IMG/VR virus record: IMGVR_UViG_3300027759_000203
Location: 1-37,842 of that record
Strand: one strand, 5' to 3'
DNA length: 37,842 nt
Source of the DNA: a virus
Position 1 is the stretch's first letter, and the number at the start of each line of letters is the position of its first letter. The position numbers and the translations under genes were made by a program. The notes beneath the pieces are model-generated. The model was not told where the DNA came from and did not search any database. It saw nothing but the letters and a program-made list of their open reading frames with translations. This document shows, in pieces, positions 2,765 through 37,842 of this stretch.

Positions 2765-3142
2765 TTAAAATAGTTTTCCTTGTTGTTCAAAATAATCAGA
2801 GCTTAAATTAAAGTTTTTTCTCATTGCATTATAAGTTTCAAACCACGATCTAGCTTGTGATCTAGCCATGCGCTCAATTCTTTCGCAATATTCTACAGCC
2901 TCTTGCTTGTCTTTCATTATCCAATATCCTTTAGCATCAGATAAAATCATATAGCCTCCTTTAATTCTTAAATCTCTAATTATTTGCCTAATTTTTCTTA
3001 GCGTTGACTCACTCCTATCTACTTCGTGAATTGGATGACTTCCTAACCATCTTTCTGAATCAGCAATTTCTTGTTGTGTTATCCTGTGATTAGCACTTGA
3101 GATTAAATTTAAAACACATTGCTCATCATTGGTAAGTTGCAT
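2765..3142 (-). CDS. Winged-helix-like putative DNA-binding protein
   Basis: 125 residues. The N-terminal half reads like a winged helix: VLNLISSANHRITQQEIAD (helix-turn), a recognition-helix candidate STLRKIRQIIRDLRIKGG, and a wing-like beta hairpin YMILSDAKGYWI. The second half is a charged helix (EAVEYCERIERMARSQARSW), possibly for oligomerisation. It is tightly packed in the leftward operon, 2 nt from both neighbours. It may regulate the operon or help in recombination or replication; the sequence does not decide. Confidence 0.55.
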   Translation of the reverse strand: MQLTNDEQCVLNLISSANHRITQQEIADSERWLGSHPIHEVDRSESTLRKIRQIIRDLRIKGGYMILSDAKGYWIMKDKQEAVEYCERIERMARSQARSWFETYNAMRKNFNLSSDYFEQQGKLF

Positions 3143-3144
3143 AA

Positions 3145-3507
3145 TTATAAAGATTTAAGTTTTGCATTATAGCATTCCAATACATCTGGATTATTTTTAG
3201 CCATTAATTCCCAAGCTCTTAACTCATCTTTATTTTTGCAAGCGTTTATAAACTCAATAGTCTTTTCAGCTAAAGATTTTTTGGATTGGGTGGGAATAAT
3301 TTCATCAGGAACTTCTTGGTAAAAATCGCCTAATTCTTTTAATCTAATTACATTTTGTTTATGGTATTCTTCTACCATTTCTCTTGCAATGTCTAATGCT
3401 TTGTTGGCAGATTCACCTTGGTTAATAGCAAATTCAACACCAATTTTTTCTGAAGAATAATTGCCTAAATTAAATGTTCTTTGGTAAACGATAGTTTGTA
3501 TGTGCAT
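3145..3507 (-). CDS. Hypothetical phage protein in recombination operon (120 aa)
   Basis: Not recognised by name. The N-terminal ~50 residues predict a small alpha/beta domain (YQRTFNLGNYSSEKIGVEF, then the helix ANKALDIAREMVEEYHKQN). A linker with PDEIIPTQSKK leads to a helical C-terminal part (residues ~78-115). It lies 6 nt downstream of the first gene of the leftward operon and 2 nt before the winged-helix gene. Its position next to a nuclease gene suggests a role in DNA recombination, but no catalytic motif is visible. Confidence 0.55.
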   Translation of the reverse strand: MHIQTIVYQRTFNLGNYSSEKIGVEFAINQGESANKALDIAREMVEEYHKQNVIRLKELGDFYQEVPDEIIPTQSKKSLAEKTIEFINACKNKDELRAWELMAKNNPDVLECYNAKLKSL

Positions 3508-3513
3508 AGTAGT

Positions 3514-3711
3514 TTATTTTATTCTGGTTACAATAGTTACAGTGTCAGCAGCTTTTATTTTAAATAGTTTGTTTTTGTGAGCGTCTTTTTTCTTTAAATT
3601 AGAAACCATTACCATTACTGAAGTATATGGATTGTCTAATCTAAGATGCTCACCTAGGGTCAAATCAGCTACCTTACTGGAAACCGAATCGGGGGAAATG
3701 TTTCTTGCCAT
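3514..3711 (-). CDS. Small hypothetical protein, first gene of leftward operon (65 aa)
   Basis: 65 residues, basic, not recognised. The segment LTLGEHLRLDNPYTSVMVMVSNLKKKD followed by FKIKAADTVTIVTRI could be a short helix plus beta-rich DNA-binding fold, but this is weak. It is the promoter-proximal gene of the operon running to 1660: a TAATTTTG element on the minus strand lies 16 nt upstream of its ATG. A short early regulator is a reasonable guess only. Confidence 0.5.
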   Translation of the reverse strand: MARNISPDSVSSKVADLTLGEHLRLDNPYTSVMVMVSNLKKKDAHKNKLFKIKAADTVTIVTRIK

Positions 3712-9392: not shown

Positions 9393-9740
9393 TTAAGGTG
9401 CTGCAGTTGTTGTGGTTGTAGTTGGAGCTGCTGTTGTTGTTGTGGTTGGTGCCGCTGTAGTAGTAGTAGTACTAGCAATACCACCACCATTGATAGCTGT
9501 AATTAATTGTGCAACTGTTGCAGCACTATATAATTTTTCAGCTGGTTGATTAAGACCACTAGGATACATAAGAATTAATGAATTCATTTGTACTCCATTT
9601 GCTACCACAGTAGTAGGTTGTACTTGTAAGCCAACCGTAGGTAGTGAGAATAATACACCAGATGTCGCAGGTGTGCCGTTTGGGTTGTTTAAATCGTATT
9701 GATTTCTACGATAAACATAAACCGATAAGTGATTTGCCAT
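9393..9740 (-). CDS. Virion/decoration-like protein, paralogue A with TTTTTTAAP tail (115 aa)
   Basis: Residues 1-~85 form the same small domain as the downstream paralogue (RRNQYDLNNPNGTPATSG, VVANGVQMNS, YPSGLNQP, TVAQL). A GGG hinge leads to a tail of 25 residues made of TTTTTAAP, TTTTTAAP and TTTTTTAAP, which ends the protein. The same tail ends the unrelated protein at 15446 and forms the linkers of the giant tail protein. Thr-Pro-Ala stretches of this sort are usually extended stalks and may be glycosylated. It is transcribed against the flanking operons from its own promoter. Confidence 0.6.
   Translation of the reverse strand: MANHLSVYVYRRNQYDLNNPNGTPATSGVLFSLPTVGLQVQPTTVVANGVQMNSLILMYPSGLNQPAEKLYSAATVAQLITAINGGGIASTTTTTAAPTTTTTAAPTTTTTTAAP
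9396..9470 (-). repeat. TTTTTTAAP-coding repeat tract (inverted copy)
   Basis: 75 bp of (ACN)n units interrupted by GC-rich Ala-Ala-Pro codons, on the minus strand. The same coding pattern recurs on the plus strand at 15799-15823 and four times between 25603 and 27363. Mixed ACA/ACT codons keep the reading frame whatever the copy number. Confidence 0.8.
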
Positions 9741-15445: not shown

Positions 15446-15826
15446 ATGGCAACGGTAAGTAAACTTTTAATAAGACTACAAAAATTTAGTTCAAAAATTA
15501 GCACAGTTGTAGATGCAACAGCTTCTTTTAATACTAATAATAATTTTTACCAAGATTTATCTGGATGGGATTCTGCGGTAGTACAATTTGTAGGTACATC
15601 TGGAACAATTAGTTTCAGTACTACCAACGATGATGGTTCTATTACAGGGCAATTATTACCTGCACCAGAAGTCCCAATTAACTGGGTTTCAGTTTTAGGA
15701 GTTAATTTGACAACAAAAACAGATGTAGCATCAATTGCAGCAGCTGGTATTGTTGAATTTGGTATTATTGGTAAATATTTGTTATTACAAGGTAACACAA
15801 CAACTACAACAACAGCAGCCCCTTAA
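15446..15826 (+). CDS. Virion-like beta protein ending in TTTTTTAAP (126 aa)
   Basis: 126 residues, beta-rich and low in charge: STVVDATASFNTNNNFYQDL, WDSAVVQFVGTSGTISFSTTNDDG, NWVSVLGVNLTTKTDVAS, VEFGIIGKYLLLQGN. It ends exactly with TTTTTTAAP, the same last residues as the unrelated protein at 9393, and the unit used as linker in the giant tail protein. It lies between portal and scaffold genes after an A-rich leader. A capsid decoration protein fits the composition and place; this is inference. Confidence 0.6.
   Translation: MATVSKLLIRLQKFSSKISTVVDATASFNTNNNFYQDLSGWDSAVVQFVGTSGTISFSTTNDDGSITGQLLPAPEVPINWVSVLGVNLTTKTDVASIAAAGIVEFGIIGKYLLLQGNTTTTTTAAP
15799..15823 (+). repeat. TTTTTTAAP-coding repeat (single unit)
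   Basis: One (ACA/ACT)6 run plus Ala-Ala-Pro codons, directly followed by TAA, as at the end of the 9393 gene. Confidence 0.7.
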
Positions 15827-19831: not shown

Positions 19832-20497
19832 ATGAATGTTAATGATATGTATCAGATATGCCAATTTGCAATTAACAAAGCGCAAAATGGTTATTTAACT
19901 CCATCAGAATTTAATCTGACTATAAATCAAGCACAGGTTTCGTATCAAGATTATTTATTAGGGGAGTTTCAGCAATATCAACCCGGAAGACCACAGGCTA
20001 GAATCAATTATAGTCAAAATGAAAATATAAGACAAAGGCTTACTCCATTGCTTGCAACTGCATCACTTGCAGTCAATGCTGGCACTGGCGCCATAGCTTA
20101 CCCAGCTGATTATGTTCAGTCCGATAGCTTATTAACTTCTACATTACAAAGAGTTAGATATACTCAACAAGATAGTTTATATTCTTATTACAATAGTACA
20201 ATAGACCCCGTAGCTACTAATCCTATTTATATGATTACTAGTACTGGATTTCAATTTTATCCAATAACAATTGGTACTGTTACCTTGAACTATATTAAAG
20301 AAGCCCCATCAATAGTTTGGGCTTATACTACAGTAAGTGGTAGACCTGTTTATAATTCTGCTTCAAGCGTTCAACCAGTATGGGCTGATGTAGATTTATT
20401 AGAAATAATAGCTCGTGCATTAAAATTAATAGGGTTAAACTTGCAAGATGGTCAACTAGAGCAATATGCTAATCAAGTAACTCAACAAGGACAATAA
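19832..20497 (+). CDS. Head-tail adaptor-like protein 1
   Basis: 221 residues. A helical start (DMYQICQFAINKAQNGYLTPSEFNLTINQAQVSYQDYLL) precedes a beta-rich middle, with TGAIAYPADYVQ and FQFYPITIGTVTLNYIKEAP, then a final helical part LLEIIARALKLIGLNLQDGQLEQY. The alternation of long N- and C-terminal helices around a beta core is typical of gp4/gp6-like connector or ring proteins between portal and tail. Its stop overlaps the next ATG. The exact ring position is unknown. Confidence 0.55.
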   Translation: MNVNDMYQICQFAINKAQNGYLTPSEFNLTINQAQVSYQDYLLGEFQQYQPGRPQARINYSQNENIRQRLTPLLATASLAVNAGTGAIAYPADYVQSDSLLTSTLQRVRYTQQDSLYSYYNSTIDPVATNPIYMITSTGFQFYPITIGTVTLNYIKEAPSIVWAYTTVSGRPVYNSASSVQPVWADVDLLEIIARALKLIGLNLQDGQLEQYANQVTQQGQ

Positions 20498-21130: not shown

Positions 21131-21403
21131 ATGAAACCAATAAGAGATTTAGTTTTAGTAAAGCCATTTATGGCAGAAGGTGTTACAGAAGGAGGGTTAT
21201 TTTTACCTCAAAACTACATAGAGAGAAGCTGTAAGGCTAAAGTAGTTTCTACCGGAAGAGGCACAGCTAAAATAAAAATGGAAGCAAAGAAGGATGATGT
21301 TATTTTCCATATCAAAGGAGCAGGGGAGGCCATTTTATTAAACGATGAATTGCATTTCTTGATTCGTCATAATGATATATTAGCTTACGCAACAAATAAT
21401 TAA
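21131..21403 (+). CDS. groES: GroES-like co-chaperonin
   Basis: 90 residues, the normal size of GroES (~95). It starts with PIRDLVLVKPF (as in PL-DRVLVK), then a shortened mobile-loop region VTEGGLFLPQNYIERSCKAKVVSTGRGTAKI, where GGLFLP replaces the GGIVLP signature, and ends in HFLIRHNDILAYA, as in the final EVLIMRESDILA. The loop that contacts GroEL is present. Phage co-chaperonins such as T4 gp31 fit the host GroEL to the capsid protein. The odd position among connector genes supports a head-assembly role. Confidence 0.88.
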   Translation: MKPIRDLVLVKPFMAEGVTEGGLFLPQNYIERSCKAKVVSTGRGTAKIKMEAKKDDVIFHIKGAGEAILLNDELHFLIRHNDILAYATNN

Positions 21404-22182: not shown

Positions 22183-25100
22183 ATGCCAATTATAAATAAC
22201 CCGTTTAATGGTAAGCTGAATTTAGATGTTGCTCAATATAGAATTTCCAATGGAGATTATATTGATGCATTGAATATAACTAAAGATTCACAAGGAATCG
22301 GTAACGATTTGGTTATTGCTAATATCTTAGGTAATACTGAAATAGCGTATACAGTGCCTGCGGGTGAAAATAAAGTAATTGGCTTTTATCCAGATAAGGT
22401 AAGAGATAGAGCTTATTATTTTCTTTGGAATAGTAATGGTTATAATAGTATTTTATATTACAATGCTAGTACAGAAGCTATTGTAAAAGTTTTAGAAAGC
22501 AAAACAGATAGCGATGGTATAGACATTTTAAATTTTAATCCTTCTTATAAGGTGTTGTCTGTAAATATTTTTTACAGAGATGACGAAGGAGATTTATTGT
22601 TTTTTAATGATGGACTAAATCCACCAAAAGTAATTAATGTATCTGATAATTATGGCACTTCTTGGAAATTAGAATATATATTGGTAGCTAAAGCTCCTCC
22701 AATAATGCCACCTAAAGTAGTTTACGAAAATGATACTACTGTAAATGTAAATAATGTAAGAAATACTTTATTTCAGTTTTGTTACAGATATGTTTATGAT
22801 AATAATGAAAAATCAGTTTGGAGCGCTAGAAGTATAGTGCCATTGCCGCAACAAGATACTTTGTTATTAACTAGCGATATTCCAACTAAAAATGCTAGAA
22901 TTTCAGTATCAACAAGTACAGGCGGAATTGATGTAAGAGCTATAGAAATAGCTTTTAGAGAAACGACAAATGGTTTTACAACTGATTGGTACTTAATTAG
23001 TTCTTTTAATAAAGCAGTTTTATCTGTGCCTGACTATGATTTGTATAATTATAAATTTTATAATGACAGTATTTATTCACAAATTGATGTATTAGAAACC
23101 GAGCAGTTGCAAGATTATGTTCCTCAAAGAGCAAACGCTGCCGAACTTGCCAATGGGAATGTTTTGTTGTATTCTGGTATCACTGAAGGTTATAATAAAA
23201 CCTCAATGAACTTGGTTTCGGTATCACAAGACGCTTTAGATAGCTACTATTTTGATAAATGTGGATTGTTATTTTTTGCTACAGTTAATGGACTAGATAG
23301 TGGCGTTGATGGTACAATATTAAAAATATATATTTACGGTACTGGAACAAATACCTCTGGAATAATATCAACACTTGATAATGCTGGCGGTATATATATG
23401 GTAAATATAATCAATAGCGCAGGAACAAGTATAGGTGTTTCTTACACAAATAATACAAACAGCGTAACTGTTTCTACGTTATTAACTGCTATTTCTAGTG
23501 CATTTACTACAAACGGAGGAGGGTGGACACAAGTGTCTTTGGTTAACAATATACTTACTTTGTCAAATTCTTCAATATTTAAATTGCTTTCTAGCGGTGT
23601 AAAGATTTTATTTCCAGCTAATGCGCCTGATAATACGGTGTTTGCAAATGCGTTTTCATCTGGGTACCAATATGCAGTTCAATATTTTGATTATTTAGGA
23701 AGAACAATAGGAGCGCAAACAGATATAGATGCATCGTTTACCACTCAAATAGTCCCCGGTGACCCTACGGTGTATAGGTATCCAATTACTAAATTAGAAA
23801 TAAAAAATAGACCGCCATTAGAGGCTTCTTATTATCATGTATTGAGGTCAAATAATACAACATACAATAAAAGATTATTTTGGATTTCTAAAGCGGCTTA
23901 TGCAAGCACTTCGGTAGATACTACTGTACAAAGATTTGCATATGTAGACATAAGTAATATAGATGCATATAATGAATTAATAACATCCACTCAAGGGGTG
24001 GTTTCATATAATTTTACACAAGGAGATAGAATTACCTTTTTAGCAAGATATAATTCTTCTAATACACAAATTTTATTTACAACTTTATATGACTATGAAG
24101 TTTTAGGAACAAATGCTGTTATTACTCTAGGGGATGGTACTATTAAAACTGGTAATTTTATAAAAATAGCTTTCCCTTCTGGAACTGGTTCAGATATTAT
24201 GTTTACAGGTGATTCTAATTATTTACATTATAAAATATTCTTATACAACTATACAAGTAACTCATCTTCTACACAAAAATTTTTCTATGAAGTTGATAAA
24301 TGTTTTGGGATAGGCAATGCTGGTACAAACAATGCTTATCATATTGGATTAGAACAAACTCAATCAGCGTCTTCTCCAACATCAGTACCTGCAATAGTTT
24401 CTTTAACAAATGGAGATTTATTTTGGAGAAAAAGAAAAGTTTCTTACAGTGATGCATTTGTTTTTACAGCAGGTGGCACAAGTCAAGATATTAATTCATT
24501 AATGCAAATTACTGTAACCGATTCTCCAATAACAACATCTGATTATATTGTTAAAACTCAAGCATTTAACAACAATTTGCCTGCAAATTATCCTACTTAT
24601 GCAAGTGCTAATTTTTTCTTTAATAATTTATTGGCTACAGATGCATTGTTATTGAGACTATCGGGGGAATTTTCTGTGTTTCAATCTCAAGCAAATAATA
24701 ACACAACATTTAGTATAAAGGCTATTATTTTAACGGCAAGCACTTCAACTTTATTAGATTTAACAAAAACAGAAGTTGTTCAATCTCAAATTGTAACTAA
24801 TTTTATTTTAGATAATACTATATCAATTCCAGCAACTGCAAAGGTATGGATTGCTGTTTACAGTTCAAACACCCTTGCAGGAGAAACATTTACTTTAAAT
24901 GCATTTAATTTAAATTTTAATTTATTAAAAAACTATACTATTCCAATAATAGAAAAAAGCTTTAATGATACTTATAATTTAGTTACTAATAGTAACGGAA
25001 GGGTATCCGTAGTAGATGAAAATGCAAAACAAACGTATTTCCCTACATTAATTAGATTTGGGGGTGCTTATCAAGTAAATACTAATATTAATCAAATAAA

Positions 25101-27711
25101 TAATTTTAAATTTGAAAACTTTGATGAATACGATAGAAGCTTTGGCGATGTAATAAGATTGCATGTTAGAGATAGATATTTAAAGGTTTACCAAAAGTTT
25201 AAAGTAGGTAATGTGCCTATTCTAACACAAATAGTTAAGGATAGTGCTAACAACCCATTGCAAGCTAATACAGATGTTTTAATTAATAAGATTCAGTATT
25301 ATTCTGGCGATTATGGAATTGGAGATGCAGCAACAAGTTTAGCTTGGAATAATTTTGCTGATTATTTTGTAGATAATTATAGAGGAGTTGTATGTAGATT
25401 AAGCCAAGATGGTATTACTCCAATAAGTATTACTAATCATATGAATGCTTTTTTTGTGGCTACTTTAAGTGCATATAGACAAGAATTGAATAATGGGGTA
25501 GTTGAAACAGGAGTATATATGGGAAATCCATGTATTTATGGTGTATTTGATGCTTATACTAATAAGTATATAATTGCTATGGAGGAAATTAATAGATTTA
25601 TTACTACTACTACAACTACAACAACTACTGCCGCCCCAACAACTACTACAACAACTACTGCTGCTCCTACAACTACTACAACAACAACTGCTGCTCCGAC
25701 TACAACAACAACTGCTGCCCCGACAACTACTACAACTACTCAAGCGCTTGTAAGTTTTGATACTTCTGGTGGCTGTGAGAATGGTAGCTCTAGCGATGGC
25801 GTAGGTGCAATGGTAAGTTTTAGTGGTGGTTCTGGTCTTTACCAAGCATCAACTACAACATACGCAAGCGAAGCATTGGCTTTAGCGGGGACTTATACAG
25901 ACGCAATAGCAACAAGAGCATTTAGTGGTTTAGCTGTTGGAACATATTGGGTAGCCCTTAGAGATAAAAATAATATTAGTGACAAAATAGCTCATTCATT
26001 TGCAATTACTACCTGTTCAACTACTACAACTACTACTTTACCACCTTTAACTTATGATTTTAGTGCAACTTGTACAAGTACAACTGAACAAAGTATTACG
26101 ATTAATAATTTTGCAGGCGGAAATGGAACTGATTATTACGCTAACACTACAACTTATGGTGATGCGGTAGCTGCAGCTGCGGGGGCAACTACCTTGGTGC
26201 TTCTTGGAACTAGAACATTTACAGCTCAAGCTACAGGGACTAGATATGTTTATGCATATTCCGCGACTAGGTCATTGGTTAAAAATGGTGGAAATTCTTG
26301 CGCAACTACAACAACAACTGCTGCCCCGACAACTACTACAACTACTCAAGCACTTGTAAGTTTTGATACTTCTGGGGGTTGTGAAAATGGTAGTTCTAGT
26401 GATGGTGTAGGTGCAATGGTAAGTTTTAGTGGTGGTTCTGGTGTTTATCAAGCAACAACAACAACATACGCAAGTGAAATTTTAGCTTTAGCGGGAACTT
26501 ATACAGATGTTACAGCAACGAGAACGTTTACTGGATTAGCTGTTGGAACATACTGGGTAGCATTAAGAGATAAAAATAATATTAGCGATAAAATAGCTCA
26601 TTCATTTGAAATTACTACTTGTATAACTACAACTACTACAACTACTACTTTACCACCTTTGACTTATGATTTTAGTGCAACTTGTACAAGTACATCTGCC
26701 CAAGATATTACAATTAATAATTTTGCAGGCGGAGACGGGACTAGTTATTATGCCAACACAGTAACATATGCAGATGCAGTGGCAGCAGCTGCGGGGGCAA
26801 CAACATTGGTGCTTCTTGGAACTAGAACATTTACAGCTCAAGCTGTAGGAACTCGTTATGTTTATGCATATTCAGCAAGTAGGTCATTGGTTAAGAATGG
26901 TGGAAATTCTTGTGCAACAACTACAACCACTGCAGCTCCTACAACTACAACTACAACCACTGCAGCTCCTACAACTACAACAACAACAGTTGCCCCAACA
27001 ACTACTACAACAACATTACCTCCTATAACTTACGATATAACTGCAACTTGCACTGGTACAACTCAAACAATTACAATTAACAACTTTGCTGGTGGTGATG
27101 GCACAAATTATTATGCTAACACTACAACTTATGGCGATGCAGTGGCAGCAGCCGCAGGAGCTACAACATTAGTAACAGGTGGAACTAGGTCTTTTGCAGG
27201 GCAAGTAAGCGGAACTCGTTATGTATATGTTTATTCAGGTACAAGGTCTTTAGTGAAGAATGCAGGAAATACTTGTACAACTACGACAACAACCACAACT
27301 ACAACAGCTGCGCCTACGACAACTACTACTACTGCCGCACCTACGACAACAACAACGCCACCTACCGTTACTTTGAATATTAATGCTAAACGAAACGGTA
27401 CAGCAGGTGTGGACCCTGTATATTTATCTTATAACGCAGGTACAGGTTGGGTTGAAATACCAACTGATGTTTCAAGAAATAGTGCTTGTTTAGCATATAC
27501 AAGTGTAACCGTGAATGTAGGTACAATTGTATCTATAATACAAAGAAATATTAACCAAAATGCTTATTGTACAGCAGTAGCAAGTACAGTATCATGTCCT
27601 ACTAGTGGTGACTTTACAGGTGAACTTTGTCAAAACCAAGTTACTGTCACTTCAAACTCAACTATTTTTATATCTATAAATACAGCAAATACAATTTGCC
27701 CTAATCCTTAG
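22183..27711 (+). CDS. Giant tail protein with beta-rich base and Thr-linked SprB-like modules
   Basis: 1842 residues, the second longest gene. Residues 1-~1140 are a long beta-rich body starting NPFNGKLNLDVAQYRISNGDYIDALNI, reminiscent of the muzzle/P22 gp10-like hub of crAss-like phages. From 1141 Thr runs with AAP begin. They separate modules A1 (~1187-1280), B1 (~1289-1375), A2 (~1389-1480), B2 (~1491-1580), B3 (~1613-1695) and a last module C (~1727-1842). The A modules have GG-SG-Y, GTYWVALRDKNN and Cys near both ends, much like SprB repeats of flavobacterial gliding adhesins. Probably the receptor-binding tail part. No frameshift or signal peptide seen. Confidence 0.75.
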   Translation: MPIINNPFNGKLNLDVAQYRISNGDYIDALNITKDSQGIGNDLVIANILGNTEIAYTVPAGENKVIGFYPDKVRDRAYYFLWNSNGYNSILYYNASTEAIVKVLESKTDSDGIDILNFNPSYKVLSVNIFYRDDEGDLLFFNDGLNPPKVINVSDNYGTSWKLEYILVAKAPPIMPPKVVYENDTTVNVNNVRNTLFQFCYRYVYDNNEKSVWSARSIVPLPQQDTLLLTSDIPTKNARISVSTSTGGIDVRAIEIAFRETTNGFTTDWYLISSFNKAVLSVPDYDLYNYKFYNDSIYSQIDVLETEQLQDYVPQRANAAELANGNVLLYSGITEGYNKTSMNLVSVSQDALDSYYFDKCGLLFFATVNGLDSGVDGTILKIYIYGTGTNTSGIISTLDNAGGIYMVNIINSAGTSIGVSYTNNTNSVTVSTLLTAISSAFTTNGGGWTQVSLVNNILTLSNSSIFKLLSSGVKILFPANAPDNTVFANAFSSGYQYAVQYFDYLGRTIGAQTDIDASFTTQIVPGDPTVYRYPITKLEIKNRPPLEASYYHVLRSNNTTYNKRLFWISKAAYASTSVDTTVQRFAYVDISNIDAYNELITSTQGVVSYNFTQGDRITFLARYNSSNTQILFTTLYDYEVLGTNAVITLGDGTIKTGNFIKIAFPSGTGSDIMFTGDSNYLHYKIFLYNYTSNSSSTQKFFYEVDKCFGIGNAGTNNAYHIGLEQTQSASSPTSVPAIVSLTNGDLFWRKRKVSYSDAFVFTAGGTSQDINSLMQITVTDSPITTSDYIVKTQAFNNNLPANYPTYASANFFFNNLLATDALLLRLSGEFSVFQSQANNNTTFSIKAIILTASTSTLLDLTKTEVVQSQIVTNFILDNTISIPATAKVWIAVYSSNTLAGETFTLNAFNLNFNLLKNYTIPIIEKSFNDTYNLVTNSNGRVSVVDENAKQTYFPTLIRFGGAYQVNTNINQINNFKFENFDEYDRSFGDVIRLHVRDRYLKVYQKFKVGNVPILTQIVKDSANNPLQANTDVLINKIQYYSGDYGIGDAATSLAWNNFADYFVDNYRGVVCRLSQDGITPISITNHMNAFFVATLSAYRQELNNGVVETGVYMGNPCIYGVFDAYTNKYIIAMEEINRFITTTTTTTTTAAPTTTTTTTAAPTTTTTTTAAPTTTTTAAPTTTTTTQALVSFDTSGGCENGSSSDGVGAMVSFSGGSGLYQASTTTYASEALALAGTYTDAIATRAFSGLAVGTYWVALRDKNNISDKIAHSFAITTCSTTTTTTLPPLTYDFSATCTSTTEQSITINNFAGGNGTDYYANTTTYGDAVAAAAGATTLVLLGTRTFTAQATGTRYVYAYSATRSLVKNGGNSCATTTTTAAPTTTTTTQALVSFDTSGGCENGSSSDGVGAMVSFSGGSGVYQATTTTYASEILALAGTYTDVTATRTFTGLAVGTYWVALRDKNNISDKIAHSFEITTCITTTTTTTTLPPLTYDFSATCTSTSAQDITINNFAGGDGTSYYANTVTYADAVAAAAGATTLVLLGTRTFTAQAVGTRYVYAYSASRSLVKNGGNSCATTTTTAAPTTTTTTTAAPTTTTTTVAPTTTTTTLPPITYDITATCTGTTQTITINNFAGGDGTNYYANTTTYGDAVAAAAGATTLVTGGTRSFAGQVSGTRYVYVYSGTRSLVKNAGNTCTTTTTTTTTTAAPTTTTTTAAPTTTTTPPTVTLNINAKRNGTAGVDPVYLSYNAGTGWVEIPTDVSRNSACLAYTSVTVNVGTIVSIIQRNINQNAYCTAVASTVSCPTSGDFTGELCQNQVTVTSNSTIFISINTANTICPNP
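25603..25740 (+). repeat. TTTTTTAAP-coding tract, linker 1
   Basis: A run of Thr codons (ACT/ACA mixed) broken by several Ala-Ala-Pro units (five Thr runs in a row). This links the tail-hub part of the giant protein to its first module. Copy number can change without loss of frame because units are triplets. Confidence 0.85.
25741..26940 (+). repeat. Tandem ~606-bp duplication of module pair A-B
   Basis: The pair A1-B1 begins at 25741 and A2-B2 at 26347, an offset of 606 bp (202 codons). The copies are closely similar, and in the A segments most differences I noted are at third positions. A third B copy follows the next linker, at about 27019-27270, without an A partner. The pattern suggests duplication followed by selection on the protein. 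Confidence 0.8.
26304..26346 (+). repeat. TTTTTTAAP-coding tract, linker 2
   Basis: Thr codons with one Ala-Ala-Pro unit joining B1 to A2. Matches the end of linker 1 (ACTACAACTACTCAAGC-like end before A), showing the duplication unit includes the linker. Confidence 0.75.
26916..27018 (+). repeat. TTTTTTAAP-coding tract, linker 3
   Basis: Four Thr runs separated by AAP, AAP and VAP before the third B module. CTGCAGCTCCT units recur within it. Confidence 0.75.
27277..27363 (+). repeat. TTTTTTAAP-coding tract, linker 4
   Basis: Ten Thr codons, then AAP, Thr run, AAP, Thr run and Pro-Pro, joining B3 to the last module C. Confidence 0.75.
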
Positions 27712-30432: not shown

Positions 30433-33400
30433 ATGCCAGATCAATTTGAAAAATATTATAAGTATTTAAAAGATAATGGAGCTGATGTTGCTCCAGATTT
30501 TAACTCATTTAAAAATACTTTATCTAGTTACGATAATGCTTCTAAATATTATTCATATTTAAAAGAAAATCAATTTGATGTGCCTGCAAGTTATGATTCT
30601 TTTGCAAGCACATTTGGTTTAAAAAAAAAAGACCAAGGAGCTTCACTTTCCGTTTCTTCTCCTACTCAATTACTATCGCCAGACTTTGAAAAAGGTAAAG
30701 CTTTTGCTGAAAAAGGTTTTTTAATGCAAGCGGAGGGTACAAAAACTCCAAAAACACAAAAAAAAATATCAATTGAACCTTCTTTATTATTGGGAGGTGC
30801 GCCAAAAGTAAAACTATTAGAAGAAGATGAAGAAGCTTCTATTTTAGCTGATTTTACATCCTCTGCTTTAAAAGGACAAATACAAGGCAAAGTAGCCAAT
30901 ATATTATCAGCGGGTAAAAGACCAAGTCTAGAAGAATTAGGGGAAATTGCTCAATTACAAACAGATTTACAATTATTTCCTCAATCAAAAGCAGAGAAAG
31001 TATATCAAGAGAAAGGATTAAAAGGTTTATTTACAGATAGTCCGGGTTTAGGTGTTCAATTTGTTGCTGAAACAATGGCTAGTTCATTATCATCGTTATT
31101 TGAAGCAAGTAAAAGGACAGTTCCTACTGCTGTAGCAATGGGTGCTGTTGCTGGTGCGCCATTCGCAGGTATTGGGGCTTTAGCAGGAGCGGGTGCTGGC
31201 TTATTAGCGGGGCAATCAACGGCTGGGTATAACATTTCTACATCACAAGACATTTTAAGTTCATTATCTGAAAATGGCGTTGATATATCAAATAAAGAAA
31301 GTTTAATTAATGCTTTTTCGGATGAAGCAAAAATGGCTAAAATAAGAAATACTGCCGCTAAGTATGGCGTACCTATTTTAGTTTTTGATGCATTAACGGC
31401 AGGTTTAGCAGGTAAGTTAGCAGCTGGCGCAGTTGGTAAAAGTTTAGGTAAAAAACTATTGGCTGGACTTGGCGAAACAGGGTTGCAAATAACTGGAGGT
31501 AGTGGTGGTGAATTAGCAGCTCAAGTTGCTTCAGGTAAAAAAGTAAATTGGGATGAAATAATTATAGAAGGTATTGCAGAAGTACCGGGAGGCGTAACAG
31601 AAGTTGCTACTGGAGTCGCAATGGAAAGGTCAAAAACATCATCTAATAATAAAACATTAGCTACTCAAATTGCAACTCAAGGTGTTCAGAATGGAACAGA
31701 AGATGCTATTATCAATTTAAACAGAGATTTGGCTAACAATATTATTACTCCAGAACAGCATCAAGAAGGTGTTATTTTTGCAGAAAAAGCAGCGCAAGTA
31801 TCAGATAAAATACCCGAAACAGTAATAGGCGAAAGCAGAGTAAAATCAATTGAATTATTGGTTGAAAGAAATGATATAAAGCAGTCAAATGATATTTTGC
31901 TTCGACTAAAACAAAACATAGACGAAGCTTATCATGCTGGTATAGATGAAGAAATAAAAATTAATGAAGAAAGAATCAAAAAAATAGATTCAGAAGTATA
32001 TAATATTGCAAAAACGCCATTAGAAGAGACTAAACCAATTGAACTAGAAACAGAAGAAATTAAACCAACTGATATAGAAACTGTTGAAAAGATTTCTAGT
32101 GTAATGCCATATGTTATTGAAGATAGAAATATAGTTGAACCAGTAATTGAGAAAATAAAAAACAATCTACTTGTAAATGAAGAAGATTTATATAATGCAG
32201 CTCAAGTTTTAGAAAATTTACAATCTAAAACTAATAACGAATCATTAAAGAATTTAATTAATCCAGTAATAGATAAAATATTAACTTATGAAAATCAGTC
32301 AAAGACTTCGGTTAGCACAGTTACCAAAAAAGGCGCAATTACGCGCGTTGGAACTGATGTTGGAAAGAAAACAGTCAGCAAATCCCTCGGTCAATTTGAA
32401 GGCAGCCAAGCAACCATCACAGACAGAGATGGCAAAACCGTAAGTGGTAATTTAAAATTAGAAGATGGTAATTATAATTTATATAATGAACAAGGAGATA
32501 AGATAACTACAATTGGAGAAAAGCAAATTACTGATAGAGATGTAGTATTGCCTTCTAAAGATGTACTTCCAAATCCTATTACATTAGATGAAAATGGAAA
32601 CATTAAGTCTATAACTCTTCAATTACAGAAAGTAAACAAAGAAATAGGCGTATTACCAGATAGATTAATTACTATTGAATTCAAAGATGCAGAAAAAGCT
32701 TTAGACTATGCTATTCAATTAAGAGCAGAACAAGTTGGAGAGTTTTCTGATCCTGAATTTGAAGAAATAATAACTCAAGTAGAACAAGAAATACCAATAT
32801 CAAAAACTAAACAAGATGAGAATATACAAGAAAAAGGACAGCCAAGAAAGCAACTTGTTCAAGACGCAGACCAAAGAGCTGAGCAAAAGCGAAAAGAAGA
32901 GTCTGAGCGAGATGCTGCTAAAAGAAAAGAAGTTAAAGAAAGCTTAATTAATTTAAGAAATGAAGGTGTTTTAATAACTGCCGACAAGTCAATATTAGGT
33001 AGATTAAAGAAAGCTGTAGGTATTAAGCAAGCTCCAATGACTGATGCGGAAATAGACGCTCAAATGTCATTGTTAGATGCTATGTCTAAAGTTTGGAAAC
33101 AAACATCGGGTTTAGATAATTTCTATGATACATTTATAGCAGATATTAAAAAAGGAGATGTAAAAGATTTTAAAAATAAAGGTGGAGTATTATTCCAAAA
33201 TATAGAAAACCCTATTGCCCCAGTATCAAGAGTTACATTAGCTTTATTTCAAGAAATGCCACAATTCCAAAAAATGTTAGGGCAAATGGTTAATCCTCAA
33301 TCAGTTGCGGATTTAATAAAAAGTAATGGTAAGCAAATTGAAAAAGATATTATAAACGATGTTTTAAATTTTGAAAAATATAAAGGAGTAAAAAGAATAT

Positions 33401-36063
33401 CATTTGACGAGTTTAGAGATGATGTGGAAACACAAATAATGAAACTTGAAAAAATAAGAACTAATTCATATGCAAGTTATGGTAAAGATAACTTAGGGGA
33501 TAATGAAGATTATGGTTCTACTGAAACTATTATATTTAACTCTCCAATAGATCATGGCGATAAAGGTCACTTTTCTGGTGATTTTACAAATGCAAAAGTT
33601 GAAAAAAGAAATTGGGAAATAAAGCAAATACCGGGTACAGATACATGGGTTGCAATAGATGAAAACATGCCATCTGGGACTTCTCAAAATCAAATACAAG
33701 ACTATGTAGGTACAGCAGGAACACAAGAAAATGTACAACAATGGATTAATCAAAGACTAATAGCAGGCACACCAATTAATGTAGGATTATTTGGTCATAT
33801 AAGAAATTGGTACAATAAAAAAACTGGTGTTATGACTGTAGCTGAATTACAATCTGATGTATTTCAAAAAAACAAAGCTGCTGAATTATTAGGAAAGAAA
33901 ATACCACCACAAGAGATTGATGAGTATATGAATAAAAACTTTTATAATAAGTATAATAAAGAATTTACTGATAAATTAGTAAAAGATTTAAATTTAAAAG
34001 TTATACCATCAAAAGATATAATTGATTTACAAATACAAAATACTGAAGAAATAGGTAGATATGAAAGAGCTTTAGAAACAGTTAAAAATAATAGAGAATT
34101 TAATAAAATTACTAAAGAATTAGAAAGATTAGATATTATAAGGCAAGGATATAGAAATGCAGTAAATAATTCATATAAAACAAATTTTAAAGTTAATGAT
34201 GGGGTTTCTGTTTTTGATAAAGAAGGAAGTTACATAACAACTATAGAATTTAGAGTTTTTCAACCACCGGGAATGTCATATGGAGAATCTGAAACTAATG
34301 AGGCAATAAAAGAGGCTGCAAGAAGAGTTGCTAATTATTTTAGAATGGGCAAATTTAGTGAAGACAGATATTATATTAACATAAGTGCTACTGAGAGTCT
34401 TATAGAATTTGATAGCATTGAAAAAAGAGAAGAATATGTAAAAGATATGTATGGCATTAATCCAAAAGAATATTTTGATGAAATGACAGATATTTATAAT
34501 ATGCAAGTAGATGAATTTAATAAAGCAAGAAATACATATATTCAAAAAAGATTAGAAGAACAAAAAGCTAATTTTACATCAATACAAAAACAATTTATTG
34601 CATCTCAAAAATTCCATGAATTAAGACTATTAAGAGAGGCTTTTAAAAATGCTGCTGAGCAAGGTGCCGAAGTTGTTAGATTTCCAACGCCATACACAAT
34701 TGCTGTTACTGAAGGTTATGTAAATAAAGAAGGAGAAAACGGAATGCCTTATGAAGTAGTTAACGGAGATAGCGAAAGATTAGTATTTGGTGACATAATA
34801 AGATATGGTGATGAGAGATTTTATGTTTTAGATTCAACTTCATCTAGAATAACAGTTGCTCCAGAAAATTCAACATATTCATATGATGTTGATGATTTTA
34901 GATCTCAAGAAAGCGATAATAGAGTATATGAAATTAAAAGTGAAGCTGATAGACATTTTTATGATTTAGGTAAAATTACATTAGAAGAAGTTAAATCTTT
35001 TCAACCAGATGAATTTATGGGGGGTGAACTTAAAAATTTATTAGAAGAAAAATTTGCCGATATTTATGATGAAGAAGTAAATAACCCAAAATATGAAGGA
35101 AAGCCTATTGATGAAGTAACAATATCATGGAGTGATATTGAGGATGAATTAGATAGTAAAATAGATAGAGAATACGATAGTATGGATGCAAATGATTTGT
35201 TTGATGGTTTTGGGGATATTTATTCTGATGGTGGTAACGAAGTTTTAGTAGTGGAATCAAGAGGTCAAGTAGAAACATTAAATCAGCCAGATGAATACGA
35301 AGCGGATGGTTTTCCAGAAGATGATTATGAAGATCAATTAAGTGATGAGCAACAAACAGTTGTTAATAAATATAAAGAATTAAATAAAATATTTAAAAAG
35401 TTAAGAAAAGACGCTAGGCTTGTAAGAGATGATAATAATATGGAATGGCTTGAAACAAGTACGACAAATGAAGATATACAAAACCCACTTATTGCTTTCC
35501 AAGAAGAAGGAGGAAATATAAAAGGGGCTATTGATTTTATTAATGATAATAAAGCTTCAGTCTATGTATTTAATGGGGCAGATATCTCTACTTTGGCTCA
35601 CGAATTTACAGGTCATCTAGGAAGAAGATTCCTCGAAAAATTGGCTGAAAATAATGATGCATTTAGAAAGGATTACGAAGCTGTTAAAAAGTGGGCTAAT
35701 GTTAAAGATGATATTTGGGGTACTGTTGCTGAAGAAAAGTTTGCTAGAGGATTTGAGAGATATCTAAGAGAAGGTAAAGCACCTACTAAAGCTTTGACAT
35801 CTGTATTTGAAAGTTTGAAAAAATGGTTAACTCAAATATACAATTCTATTAAAGGATCATCAATAGATATTGATTTAACTCAAGAAGTTAAAGATATTTT
35901 TGGAGGTTTATTAGGTGCAAAAGCAGAAGGAACATTAGCAGAAGTATACGAAAATATACCCAAAGAAGGCAAATTGTCAACAAAAAATGCTGTAAAAACC
36001 TTAATAAACGATAACTTTGAAGAGATTAAGAAACAATTAGAAAATAAAAAAATATGTCAGTAA
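30433..36063 (+). CDS. Polyvalent ejected protein with metallopeptidase-like domain (1876 aa)
   Basis: 1876 residues. Two N-terminal repeats of ~33 residues (KYYKYLKDNGADVAPDF and KYYSYLKENQFDVPASY) open it, and a Gly/Ala helix with zipper spacing (~233-262) follows. Charged helical parts include ~500-640 and ~815-875. ELQSD (1138-1142) after FGHIRNWYNKKTGVMTV, and later FHELRLLREAFKNAAEQGAEVVRFP, match a domain of polyvalent proteins. Near the C-terminus, LAHEFTGHLGRRFL (H1723, E1724, H1728) is the HExxGH form of a zincin, with E1767/E1768 a possible third ligand. Such proteins are injected with the DNA to counter host defences. The ferritin gene overlaps its end. Confidence 0.75.
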   Translation: MPDQFEKYYKYLKDNGADVAPDFNSFKNTLSSYDNASKYYSYLKENQFDVPASYDSFASTFGLKKKDQGASLSVSSPTQLLSPDFEKGKAFAEKGFLMQAEGTKTPKTQKKISIEPSLLLGGAPKVKLLEEDEEASILADFTSSALKGQIQGKVANILSAGKRPSLEELGEIAQLQTDLQLFPQSKAEKVYQEKGLKGLFTDSPGLGVQFVAETMASSLSSLFEASKRTVPTAVAMGAVAGAPFAGIGALAGAGAGLLAGQSTAGYNISTSQDILSSLSENGVDISNKESLINAFSDEAKMAKIRNTAAKYGVPILVFDALTAGLAGKLAAGAVGKSLGKKLLAGLGETGLQITGGSGGELAAQVASGKKVNWDEIIIEGIAEVPGGVTEVATGVAMERSKTSSNNKTLATQIATQGVQNGTEDAIINLNRDLANNIITPEQHQEGVIFAEKAAQVSDKIPETVIGESRVKSIELLVERNDIKQSNDILLRLKQNIDEAYHAGIDEEIKINEERIKKIDSEVYNIAKTPLEETKPIELETEEIKPTDIETVEKISSVMPYVIEDRNIVEPVIEKIKNNLLVNEEDLYNAAQVLENLQSKTNNESLKNLINPVIDKILTYENQSKTSVSTVTKKGAITRVGTDVGKKTVSKSLGQFEGSQATITDRDGKTVSGNLKLEDGNYNLYNEQGDKITTIGEKQITDRDVVLPSKDVLPNPITLDENGNIKSITLQLQKVNKEIGVLPDRLITIEFKDAEKALDYAIQLRAEQVGEFSDPEFEEIITQVEQEIPISKTKQDENIQEKGQPRKQLVQDADQRAEQKRKEESERDAAKRKEVKESLINLRNEGVLITADKSILGRLKKAVGIKQAPMTDAEIDAQMSLLDAMSKVWKQTSGLDNFYDTFIADIKKGDVKDFKNKGGVLFQNIENPIAPVSRVTLALFQEMPQFQKMLGQMVNPQSVADLIKSNGKQIEKDIINDVLNFEKYKGVKRISFDEFRDDVETQIMKLEKIRTNSYASYGKDNLGDNEDYGSTETIIFNSPIDHGDKGHFSGDFTNAKVEKRNWEIKQIPGTDTWVAIDENMPSGTSQNQIQDYVGTAGTQENVQQWINQRLIAGTPINVGLFGHIRNWYNKKTGVMTVAELQSDVFQKNKAAELLGKKIPPQEIDEYMNKNFYNKYNKEFTDKLVKDLNLKVIPSKDIIDLQIQNTEEIGRYERALETVKNNREFNKITKELERLDIIRQGYRNAVNNSYKTNFKVNDGVSVFDKEGSYITTIEFRVFQPPGMSYGESETNEAIKEAARRVANYFRMGKFSEDRYYINISATESLIEFDSIEKREEYVKDMYGINPKEYFDEMTDIYNMQVDEFNKARNTYIQKRLEEQKANFTSIQKQFIASQKFHELRLLREAFKNAAEQGAEVVRFPTPYTIAVTEGYVNKEGENGMPYEVVNGDSERLVFGDIIRYGDERFYVLDSTSSRITVAPENSTYSYDVDDFRSQESDNRVYEIKSEADRHFYDLGKITLEEVKSFQPDEFMGGELKNLLEEKFADIYDEEVNNPKYEGKPIDEVTISWSDIEDELDSKIDREYDSMDANDLFDGFGDIYSDGGNEVLVVESRGQVETLNQPDEYEADGFPEDDYEDQLSDEQQTVVNKYKELNKIFKKLRKDARLVRDDNNMEWLETSTTNEDIQNPLIAFQEEGGNIKGAIDFINDNKASVYVFNGADISTLAHEFTGHLGRRFLEKLAENNDAFRKDYEAVKKWANVKDDIWGTVAEEKFARGFERYLREGKAPTKALTSVFESLKKWLTQIYNSIKGSSIDIDLTQEVKDIFGGLLGAKAEGTLAEVYENIPKEGKLSTKNAVKTLINDNFEEIKKQLENKKICQ

Positions 36064-36548
36064 AGTCATTACTAAGCCCAAGTATGAAAAAGGGCATGCA
36101 AGAAGCTGTTTACATTGAATTGTATCAGTCTAACTTATGGAAAAGCTTAGCTAACCAATTACAAAGGTTAGGTTTTTTTGGAAGTCAAAAATATTTCTTA
36201 GCTGAAAGCGCTGAGGAATTAACGCATTATCAAATGCATGTAGAATTTATGAACGATATGGGTGATTGTGCAGATTTACCGAAAATTGATGCAATCACAG
36301 AAAAAGTAGGTAATATTGGCGATGCACTTGATGCTGGATATAGCATTGAGTTAGATGTATATAATCAATACAAAGACTTTTATGAGAAAGCTCAAAAAGA
36401 AGATGTTTCTGTAGCTCAATATCTTTTACAATTCGTTGAAATTCAACGTAAAGCAGTAGGTCATTATGGTGATTTATTGGCTAAATACAAAGTAGCTGAA
36501 ACTACAAAAGAATTGTTGGAGTTTGACCAACACATTTCAGACGTTTAA
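36054..36548 (+). CDS. Ferritin (non-haem, ferroxidase-type)
   Basis: 164 residues, four-helix bundle. Helix A has E22 (AVYIELYQSNLW). Helix B has E55 and H58 in EELTHYQMH. Helix C has E99 (SIELDVYNQYKDF). Helix D has Q131 (QFVEIQRKAVGHYGDLL). These fall at the places of E17, E50, H53, E94 and Q127 of E. coli FtnA, with shifts of five or four residues. The E130 equivalent is missing (Ala134), and E129 is close by. It should oxidise Fe(II) and store Fe(III) in a 24-mer cage. The start overlaps the polyvalent protein stop by 10 bp, so the two are probably co-translated. Other ferritin-like diiron proteins or Dps are less likely. Confidence 0.85.
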   Translation: MSVKSLLSPSMKKGMQEAVYIELYQSNLWKSLANQLQRLGFFGSQKYFLAESAEELTHYQMHVEFMNDMGDCADLPKIDAITEKVGNIGDALDAGYSIELDVYNQYKDFYEKAQKEDVSVAQYLLQFVEIQRKAVGHYGDLLAKYKVAETTKELLEFDQHISDV

Positions 36549-36559
36549 ATTAAAATTAA

Positions 36560-37842
36560 ATGGCAGGTTGTTTATATTACATTATGGTAAATGGAGTTGA
36601 AACTCCAATGACTGAAGAAGAATTAAAAGCTTACCTTGAAAAAGGAGGGCTAGAAAATTTAATACAAAGTGGTGATGTAGACTTGTCTAAAATAAAAGCT
36701 AAAGAAGATGCCGTACAAAAGCGAAGCGCAAAGAAAGTACTTCAACCTGCACCGAGCGGAGTTGGAGAACCAAGGGGTGGACGTCCAAGAGTGGAACCAA
36801 GCCAGCAAGGGGAAAAAACTACCTTCCAAGCTGAAGGTGATGAAAAAATCCAAAGCCCAAGAGAAAGGAAAAAAGCCATATTAAACAATCTATTAGAAGG
36901 TAATCTTTCTGAAGAAACAAAGATGTTAATAGAAGAAAATGGCATCTATTTAGAAGCTAATATGGTAGAAGCAGAAAATGCTGCTAAAGATATAATAGAA
37001 GATATTGGAATTGAAAATGCGATTATAGCCGCTAAAACGGGAGAAGTTCACCCATCAATAGGTTCAGCAATATTTGCAGAGTCTATAAATAAACTTTGGT
37101 CACAAGAGCAAGAGTTAAGAAGAGAAGGTGAAACAAATAAAGCTGATGATGTTGCATTAAGACAAGCAGATCTTATTTCTGAATATGATGAAATTTCTAG
37201 AAGTAGCGGTCAATGGATTGCGCAAATAGCAAGATTTTATAAAACTAGCCCAATAGGTATTGTCAATAAAGTTAATGCAGAAAGAAAAATATTATTTGAA
37301 GAAAGATTTGCTCAAGATAAAACATCATTTAATAGTTTGTATCAACAGATATTAAAAGGGGAGGAAGTTCAGACTTATATAAAAAAGAAAGCTGAAGAAA
37401 TTATTAAAGAAGATAGAAAAGAAGTAAGAAAAAATAAAAGAGATTCGGTATTTAAAAAAATAGATGACACAGCTAAGTTATGGATTCAAAAATTAACTTC
37501 TAAATCTGCAAAAGGTGCAGAAAAAATGGGAGTTGGTATTGAAGATATAATTAACACAGCAGCAGCAGCTATGAAAAAAGCATATGTTGCTGGTGAACCT
37601 ATTATAAATATAGTAGAAGACGCTATTGAATACATTTCAGATAAATTAGGTACAAACGAGTGGGATATAGCAGGATTTAGAAAAGATTGGTCTGATAAAT
37701 TTGCTTCAGATGTAGAGAAAAAAGAAAGCAAGTATATTAATGCTTTAGATAAAAGAAGAAAAGAATTAGAAAGAAGATTAAGTGAAGATGATTTTAGTGC
37801 TGAAAAGTATAAGAAAAAAGAAACATTATCTGAAAAAGCAGC
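36560..37842 (+). CDS. Large, probably polyvalent, virion protein (partial, runs off the window)
   Basis: An open frame from the ATG at 36560 to the end (at least 427 residues). It starts MAGCLYYIMVNGVETPMTEEELKAYLEKG, then has a disordered basic/Gln/Gly part (SAKKVLQPAPSGVGEPRGG), FQAEGDEKIQSP, and long helical stretches; the segment QADLISEYDEISRSSGQWIAQIARFYK recalls a module common in phage polyvalent proteins. It follows the ferritin stop by 11 nt. The C-terminus is not in the window unless the molecule is circular: the frame continues in register into 2-103. No enzymatic motif is visible in the part present. Confidence 0.65.
   Translation, partial: MAGCLYYIMVNGVETPMTEEELKAYLEKGGLENLIQSGDVDLSKIKAKEDAVQKRSAKKVLQPAPSGVGEPRGGRPRVEPSQQGEKTTFQAEGDEKIQSPRERKKAILNNLLEGNLSEETKMLIEENGIYLEANMVEAENAAKDIIEDIGIENAIIAAKTGEVHPSIGSAIFAESINKLWSQEQELRREGETNKADDVALRQADLISEYDEISRSSGQWIAQIARFYKTSPIGIVNKVNAERKILFEERFAQDKTSFNSLYQQILKGEEVQTYIKKKAEEIIKEDRKEVRKNKRDSVFKKIDDTAKLWIQKLTSKSAKGAEKMGVGIEDIINTAAAAMKKAYVAGEPIINIVEDAIEYISDKLGTNEWDIAGFRKDWSDKFASDVEKKESKYINALDKRRKELERRLSEDDFSAEKYKKKETLSEKA

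Follow-up and report, generated by a model that had tools for sequence, protein, structure and literature searches.

The window analysed here, a stretch of 37,842 nucleotides from an uncultured virus (IMG/VR record IMGVR_UViG_3300027759_000203), carries a ferritin gene between two large genes for predicted polyvalent (or ejection) proteins, PV1 and PV2, the second of which begins with a mini-domain referred to as the PV2N tag (Table 1). The three genes are tightly packed: the ferritin ATG falls within the last 10 nt of the PV1 ORF, giving a 10-nt overlap, and the PV2 ATG stands 11 nt past the ferritin stop. The original prediction had described the same ORF with its ATG, the overlap with the stop of an 1876-residue gene and the second gene 11 nt later, and was correct in each of these details. 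PV2 runs off the window end, and its full length is 1283 aa in the near-identical contig L027.

Table 1. Features of the ferritin locus, in positions of the window.
Feature	Position	Strand	Basis or remark
PV1, 1876-aa predicted polyvalent/ejection protein	30433..36063	+	homology to N-terminal and middle parts of relatives' giant unsplit proteins
HEFTGH motif of PV1 (residue 1723), putatively zincin-like	35599..35616	+	sequence motif
Phage ferritin, FtnA-type with helix E	36054..36548	+	164 aa, ATG start; phrog_16594 member
Ferroxidase A/B ligand codons	36117..36446	+	E22 36117, E55 36216, H58 36225, E99 36348, Q131 36444
PV2, second predicted polyvalent/ejection gene	36560..37842	+	relatives' PV2 match the C-terminal part of giant proteins
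PV2N tag, ~38-aa N-terminal mini-domain of PV2	36560..36673	+	seen only directly behind ferritins

For the window's own PV1 and PV2, the polyvalent label comes from homology, size, position and motif. Residues 1572-1842 of PV1 match phrog_9880, which has no function label and is the only PHROGs family matched, and PV1 gave neither a Pfam domain above cut-off nor a PDB sequence match. A high-GC lineage shares this gene order, and its downstream gene has a significant ART-PolyVal domain (PF18760, E 1.5e-22) together with Phage_L5_gp82, that is, the two or more disparate effector domains by which polyvalent proteins are recognised. The earlier description of the neighbours as polyvalent is strengthened by this lineage, whereas for the window PV1, with only phrog_9880 and the HEFTGH motif, it is supported but not proved. 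Elsewhere in the window, an 1842-aa late protein (22183-27711) ends in repeated modules with Thr-rich (TTTTTTAAP) linkers between them, which occur also at 9393-9740 and 15446-15826; these proteins may be modular and act in host range or surface display. The virion blocks also encode GroES-like (Cpn10) proteins, at 21131-21403 of the window and at 9159-9989 of contig L080, where the protein has 276 aa and its gene immediately precedes the ferritin.

The identification of the gene product as a ferritin, the central claim of the original prediction, is borne out by sequence and fold. The protein scores 49.6 bits against PF00210 (E 5e-13), above the curated family cut-off of 24.5, and ferritins in the PDB are hit both by the single sequence (E 9e-8) and by a profile (E 1.6e-10). 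Its AlphaFold model (pLDDT 93) is that of a classical ferritin subunit, with predicted helices at residues 9-39, 42-68, 88-116, 118-150 and 154-161 forming a four-helix bundle and a short C-terminal helix E. The best PDB structure matches of this model are all bacterial or archaeal ferritins (TM ~0.92, including those of Thermotoga maritima and E. coli); Vibrio, Archaeoglobus and Pyrococcus ferritins are also among them, with TM ~0.9 over these five. Dps proteins have no helix E and form their ferroxidase site between subunits; the window protein has helix E and ligands within the subunit, and in the comparison with bacterioferritins its best matches are non-heme ferritins. The suggested comparison with FtnA profiles gave a divided answer: fold and ligands agree, but the NCBIfam FtnA equivalog cut-off is missed (26.6 vs 178 bits). 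Since the site-C glutamates of FtnA are missing as well, the protein is, as judged from sequence and model, a true FtnA-type ferritin but no FtnA equivalog. Its PHROGs family, phrog_16594, is unnamed. BFVD models that align structurally with the ferritin model include predicted viral proteins of 333 and 763 aa labelled 'prohead protease' and longer proteins labelled Dps; in other phages, ferritin-like domains are possibly fused to head proteins.

In an alignment to E. coli FtnA (NC_000913 ftnA), residues E22, E55, H58, E99 and Q131 correspond to E17, E50, H53, E94 and Q127, so that the five ligands that had been proposed are indeed present in the right order. They are identical in 62/62 sequences of the phage clade, and the di-iron A/B ligands lie inside one subunit. 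The glutamates of site C, which is the third iron site in bacterial ferritins (FtnA E126, E129 and E130), are missing from all 62 sequences checked: the first position holds I or F, the second mostly K and the third A or S. The window equivalents are I130, K133 and A134, a combination not expected to bind metal as in FtnA, and this loss may alter the chemistry of the iron core. Pairwise dN/dS ranged from 0.08 to 0.18 for the window ferritin, with a median of 0.15 over 354 pairs. Because the ligands are kept throughout and dN/dS is low, the sequences indicate that the ferritin is under purifying selection as a di-iron protein, yet is not simply FtnA; about twenty positions off the di-iron site are invariant in the phage clade only, as compared with the two bacterial ferritins aligned. 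The suggestion that the protein may be active is upheld by the predicted fold and the intact ligands, which together point to a probable ferroxidase; the protein may also form a ferritin-type oligomer.

The first of two IMG/VR profile scans recovered 61 distinct loci and the second 99 matching stretches (~100 loci), all clade members being uncultured contigs. None was found among 50,697 phage records or, in two scans, among GTDB genomes, where the patterns used were specific to the phage family and could miss a distant bacterial sister. Members from very different phages share ~48-62% identity, whereas bacterial (Bacteroidales) ferritins from the same searches reach 22-24% identity to the window clade; it would seem, therefore, that the gene is exchanged among phages as one of their own. 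In the tree there are at least eight changes of gene setting among phage sequences, always within virion blocks. The single hit among phage records, MT838721 (22.6% identity), was rejected: with MarC, aldolase, phosphoglycerate mutase and small heat-shock genes on the contig, its ferritin is an ordinary Bacteroidales one on a mislabelled bacterial contig. The record (L026, MT838721.1) is deposited as 'Bacteriophage sp.', and the same gene order occurs on a Parabacteroides record.

The placement of the ferritin in a block of late virion genes, as originally proposed, is recovered in six settings, several of them in unrelated phages. In the window lineage (33% GC), whose terminase is ~27-30% identical to those of Flavobacterium elemo and Cellulophaga podophages, the order is polyvalent gene, ferritin, polyvalent gene. 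A related podophage lineage has portal (phrog_6547), ferritin, a ~380-aa gene and an SU10-type major capsid gene, and L080 has the GroES-like protein, ferritin and a homologue of the protein encoded at 19832-20497 of the window. These first three settings share related terminase or portal genes, and the other three fall outside them: the Mu-like phage L083 (Portal_Mu, Phage_Mu_F, ferritin, a short gene, a virion morphogenesis gene), the high-GC lineage (56-59% GC; a ~2100-aa HExxH gene, ferritin, and an ART-PolyVal gene of 1100-2000 aa) and L268 (61% GC; lambda-type portal, ferritin). Thus the ferritin adjoins polyvalent genes in two unrelated lineages, portal genes of two kinds and a Mu-F gene, and also stands ahead of a tail gene. 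The search for the same gene order in relatives, which had been advised, was answered both within the window lineage and in the unrelated high-GC lineage, and in the polyvalent settings the distances between the ferritin and its neighbours are mostly -16 to +12 nt, as in translationally coupled genes. In the high-GC lineage the terminase has relatives in Rhizobium phages and P22-like Salmonella phages, and one member has a 127-bp direct terminal repeat; Rhizobium phage RHph_N2, considered as a model for this lineage, was set aside, there being no comparable giant gene among its annotated genes. Among the relatives, two contigs of near-genome length, G007 (L180/L183) and G044 (L274/L277), end in inverted matches of ~1.3 kb and ~4.6 kb, either true terminal inverted repeats or the product of a hairpin artefact in assembly. 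In L041 (1389-7026) and G044 (38517-44904), a block of genes for a putative glycosyltransferase, methyltransferase and sugar-nucleotide epimerase, functions read from sequence only, lies ahead of the portal in the middle of the virion block, an unusual site for surface-sugar genes.

Linkage cannot be judged from loci that were themselves picked up by their ferritin, and searches that started from the terminase or from the tag were therefore used. When window-lineage contigs of 35 kb or more were selected only by their terminase, 25/37 carried the ferritin. It is missing from 7/16 contigs of at least 57 kb and is therefore dispensable; one of the seven is an inverted-duplicated assembly (G008, IMGVR_UViG_3300032323_002596, L190-L192), a 59,908-bp contig made of a ~30-kb inverted duplicate with two terminase copies head to head, which is probably an assembly artefact and not a complete genome. 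In the six ferritin-less contigs of near-genome length (G009, G019, G025, G028, G030 and G037), one giant gene of 2126-3361 codons occupies the same place, and no ferritin domain was found inside the giant polyvalent proteins of the ferritin-less relatives. Some giants match PV1 with their N-terminal or middle parts, and others match PV2 with their C-terminal parts. G046 shows this best: its ferritin sits elsewhere, behind the portal, and its 3718-aa protein aligns with PV1 (C-terminal regions) at 1010-1147 and with PV2 at 2802-3697. By these alignments the ferritin is at the joint of a split giant polyvalent gene, which ties its place in the virion block to the split; insertion of the ferritin may have divided the giant gene, or its loss may have fused the two halves.

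The G046 match begins at PV2 residue 42, and the first ~38 residues of PV2 are therefore extra; none of the giant unsplit proteins examined has this PV2N tag. Between the window and high-GC lineages the tag aligns with an hhalign score of 31.9 (E 1.4e-6), against a maximum of 15.0 in 200 column shuffles and at most 11.3 for other N-termini and a reversed control, and it appears, at the level of sequence profiles, to be homologous. A search of IMG/VR with the tag alone returned 28/28 loci with a ferritin directly upstream, a count that stands for fewer independent events, as the contigs are related and ~19 of them were already known through the ferritin; no tag was found in phage records. The high-GC homologue is predicted by AlphaFold, at moderate confidence, to fold as a beta-hairpin and a helix. 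The tag may dock the ferritin to PV2, presumably by direct contact, or may be a packaging signal for PV2 once it is separate from PV1. Taken further, and as a speculation that we think unlikely, ferritin and the ~38-aa docking domain would be a mobile two-part cassette that splits an ejected polyvalent gene and hangs the ferritin on its second half, whereby unrelated phage particles would come to carry, and perhaps deliver, a ferroxidase as an ejected effector.

In our best reading, to which we give an even chance, the gene encodes an active ferritin that is produced along with head and ejection proteins and probably packaged with them, and whose ferroxidase works in the particle or just after entry. 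Coupled translation would produce the ferritin together with these proteins, and it would be incorporated in the particle with the polyvalent proteins or, in other lineages, with the portal or Mu-F proteins. In the particle or just after entry it would oxidise and bind Fe(II), and in this way DNA, whether packaged or entering the cell, would be shielded from Fenton chemistry, and iron would be held or withheld. A 24-mer ferritin cage measures ~12 nm and is too large for the tail channel; an 'injected ferritin' would therefore need to mean subunits, or else a cage kept in the head. A 24-mer would thus stay in the head, by analogy with encapsulin cargo ferritin, and delivery to the cell would need subunits or unfolded chains. 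We infer packaging from gene order, from two phages whose Dps was detected, in Privateer in purified virions (PMC7881722) and in SU10 by phage proteomics (PMC4281155), and from the argument that polyvalent proteins encoded close to late phage genes enter the particle and are injected (PMC5512222).

Gene neighbourhood alone can mirror expression timing, and the main rival, possible but rather less probable, is a cytosolic late ferritin that is not packaged and mops up Fe(II) from host dismantling or balances iron for phage iron enzymes, the virion operon supplying late timing and high dose. The intact ferroxidase site fits such a protein and its chemistry is explained, and comparable readings exist: Dps and manganese catalase of gut phages (PMC8008677) and Lactobacillus phage Dps (PMC6669764) have been read cytosolically, and the Bfr of an archaeal virus, which is under purifying selection, has been taken for an auxiliary metabolic gene (PMC10904782). 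It leaves unexplained, however, why portal, Mu-F and polyvalent genes recur as neighbours in unrelated phages, and why the gene is inserted at a polyvalent joint with an exclusive tag on the next protein. An improbable alternative is a morphogenetic or structural part, in which the ferritin fold aids assembly of the portal or ejection complex and iron is secondary; the adjoining portal, Mu-F and ejection genes and the roughly twenty clade-specific positions off the di-iron site would suit it, but conservation of the five ligands goes beyond the need of a purely structural role, and many close relatives do without the gene. That a host ferritin was lately picked up as a passenger gene and has yet to settle into a role is very improbable: ferritin genes are common in bacteria, but this clade stands apart in the tree from the bacterial ferritins compared, at low identity to Bacteroidales ferritins, and the reading is already disfavoured by dN/dS, repeated phage-to-phage transfer and recurrence in unrelated phages.

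If the packaged-ferritin reading holds, an iron oxidase would be added to the list of ejected phage proteins, and iron or oxidative chemistry would be pointed to as a front in early infection. The 'Ferrojan horse' idea argued for phage iron from iron in tails and from metal-binding tail domains. The ferritin described here points to iron handling as a function of the virus particle or of the earliest minutes of infection, and a ligand-complete, virion-block-bound and tag-linked ferritin offers a single testable gene for the phage-iron question.

Encapsulins enclose ferritin-family cargo in an HK97-type shell, the cargo ferritins being of a short two-helix type; the idea of a ferritin within a shell is shared by analogy, whereas the window protein is a full FtnA-type subunit. 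With FtnA and T. maritima ferritin (PF00210) it shares the four-helix bundle and helix E, and all five ligands of FtnA, but it differs in the absence of site C, in having W or Y at the position of Y24 and in its phage-only invariant positions; identity to bacterial and archaeal non-heme ferritins is ~19-24%, with the NCBIfam cut-off missed. Phage Dps proteins (SU10, Privateer, Lactobacillus phages and Gratiaviridae) belong to the same superfamily and were in two cases detected in virion preparations, but the window ferritin has its di-iron ligands within one subunit and possesses helix E, and the SU10 gene is a middle gene outside the head block (PMC4281155). Giant-virus ferritin (PMC7136201) and archaeal-virus Bfr (PMC10904782) likewise represent virus-encoded iron storage or ferroxidase proteins, read as metabolic genes, whereas here a phage-only clade is tied to virion genes; together with phage Dps they were all that we found in the literature when looking for a phage ferritin of the FtnA kind. 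The polyvalent proteins of Iyer et al. 2017 (PMC5512222) are encoded by large, multidomain, late-adjacent genes, and ART-PolyVal and HExxH motifs occur in the neighbours here; that paper makes no mention of ferritin, which here is a separate gene at the split point. What is new is thus a phage protein of the ferritin superfamily that is of the FtnA type, belongs to a phage-only clade, keeps to virion blocks and sits where a polyvalent gene is divided.
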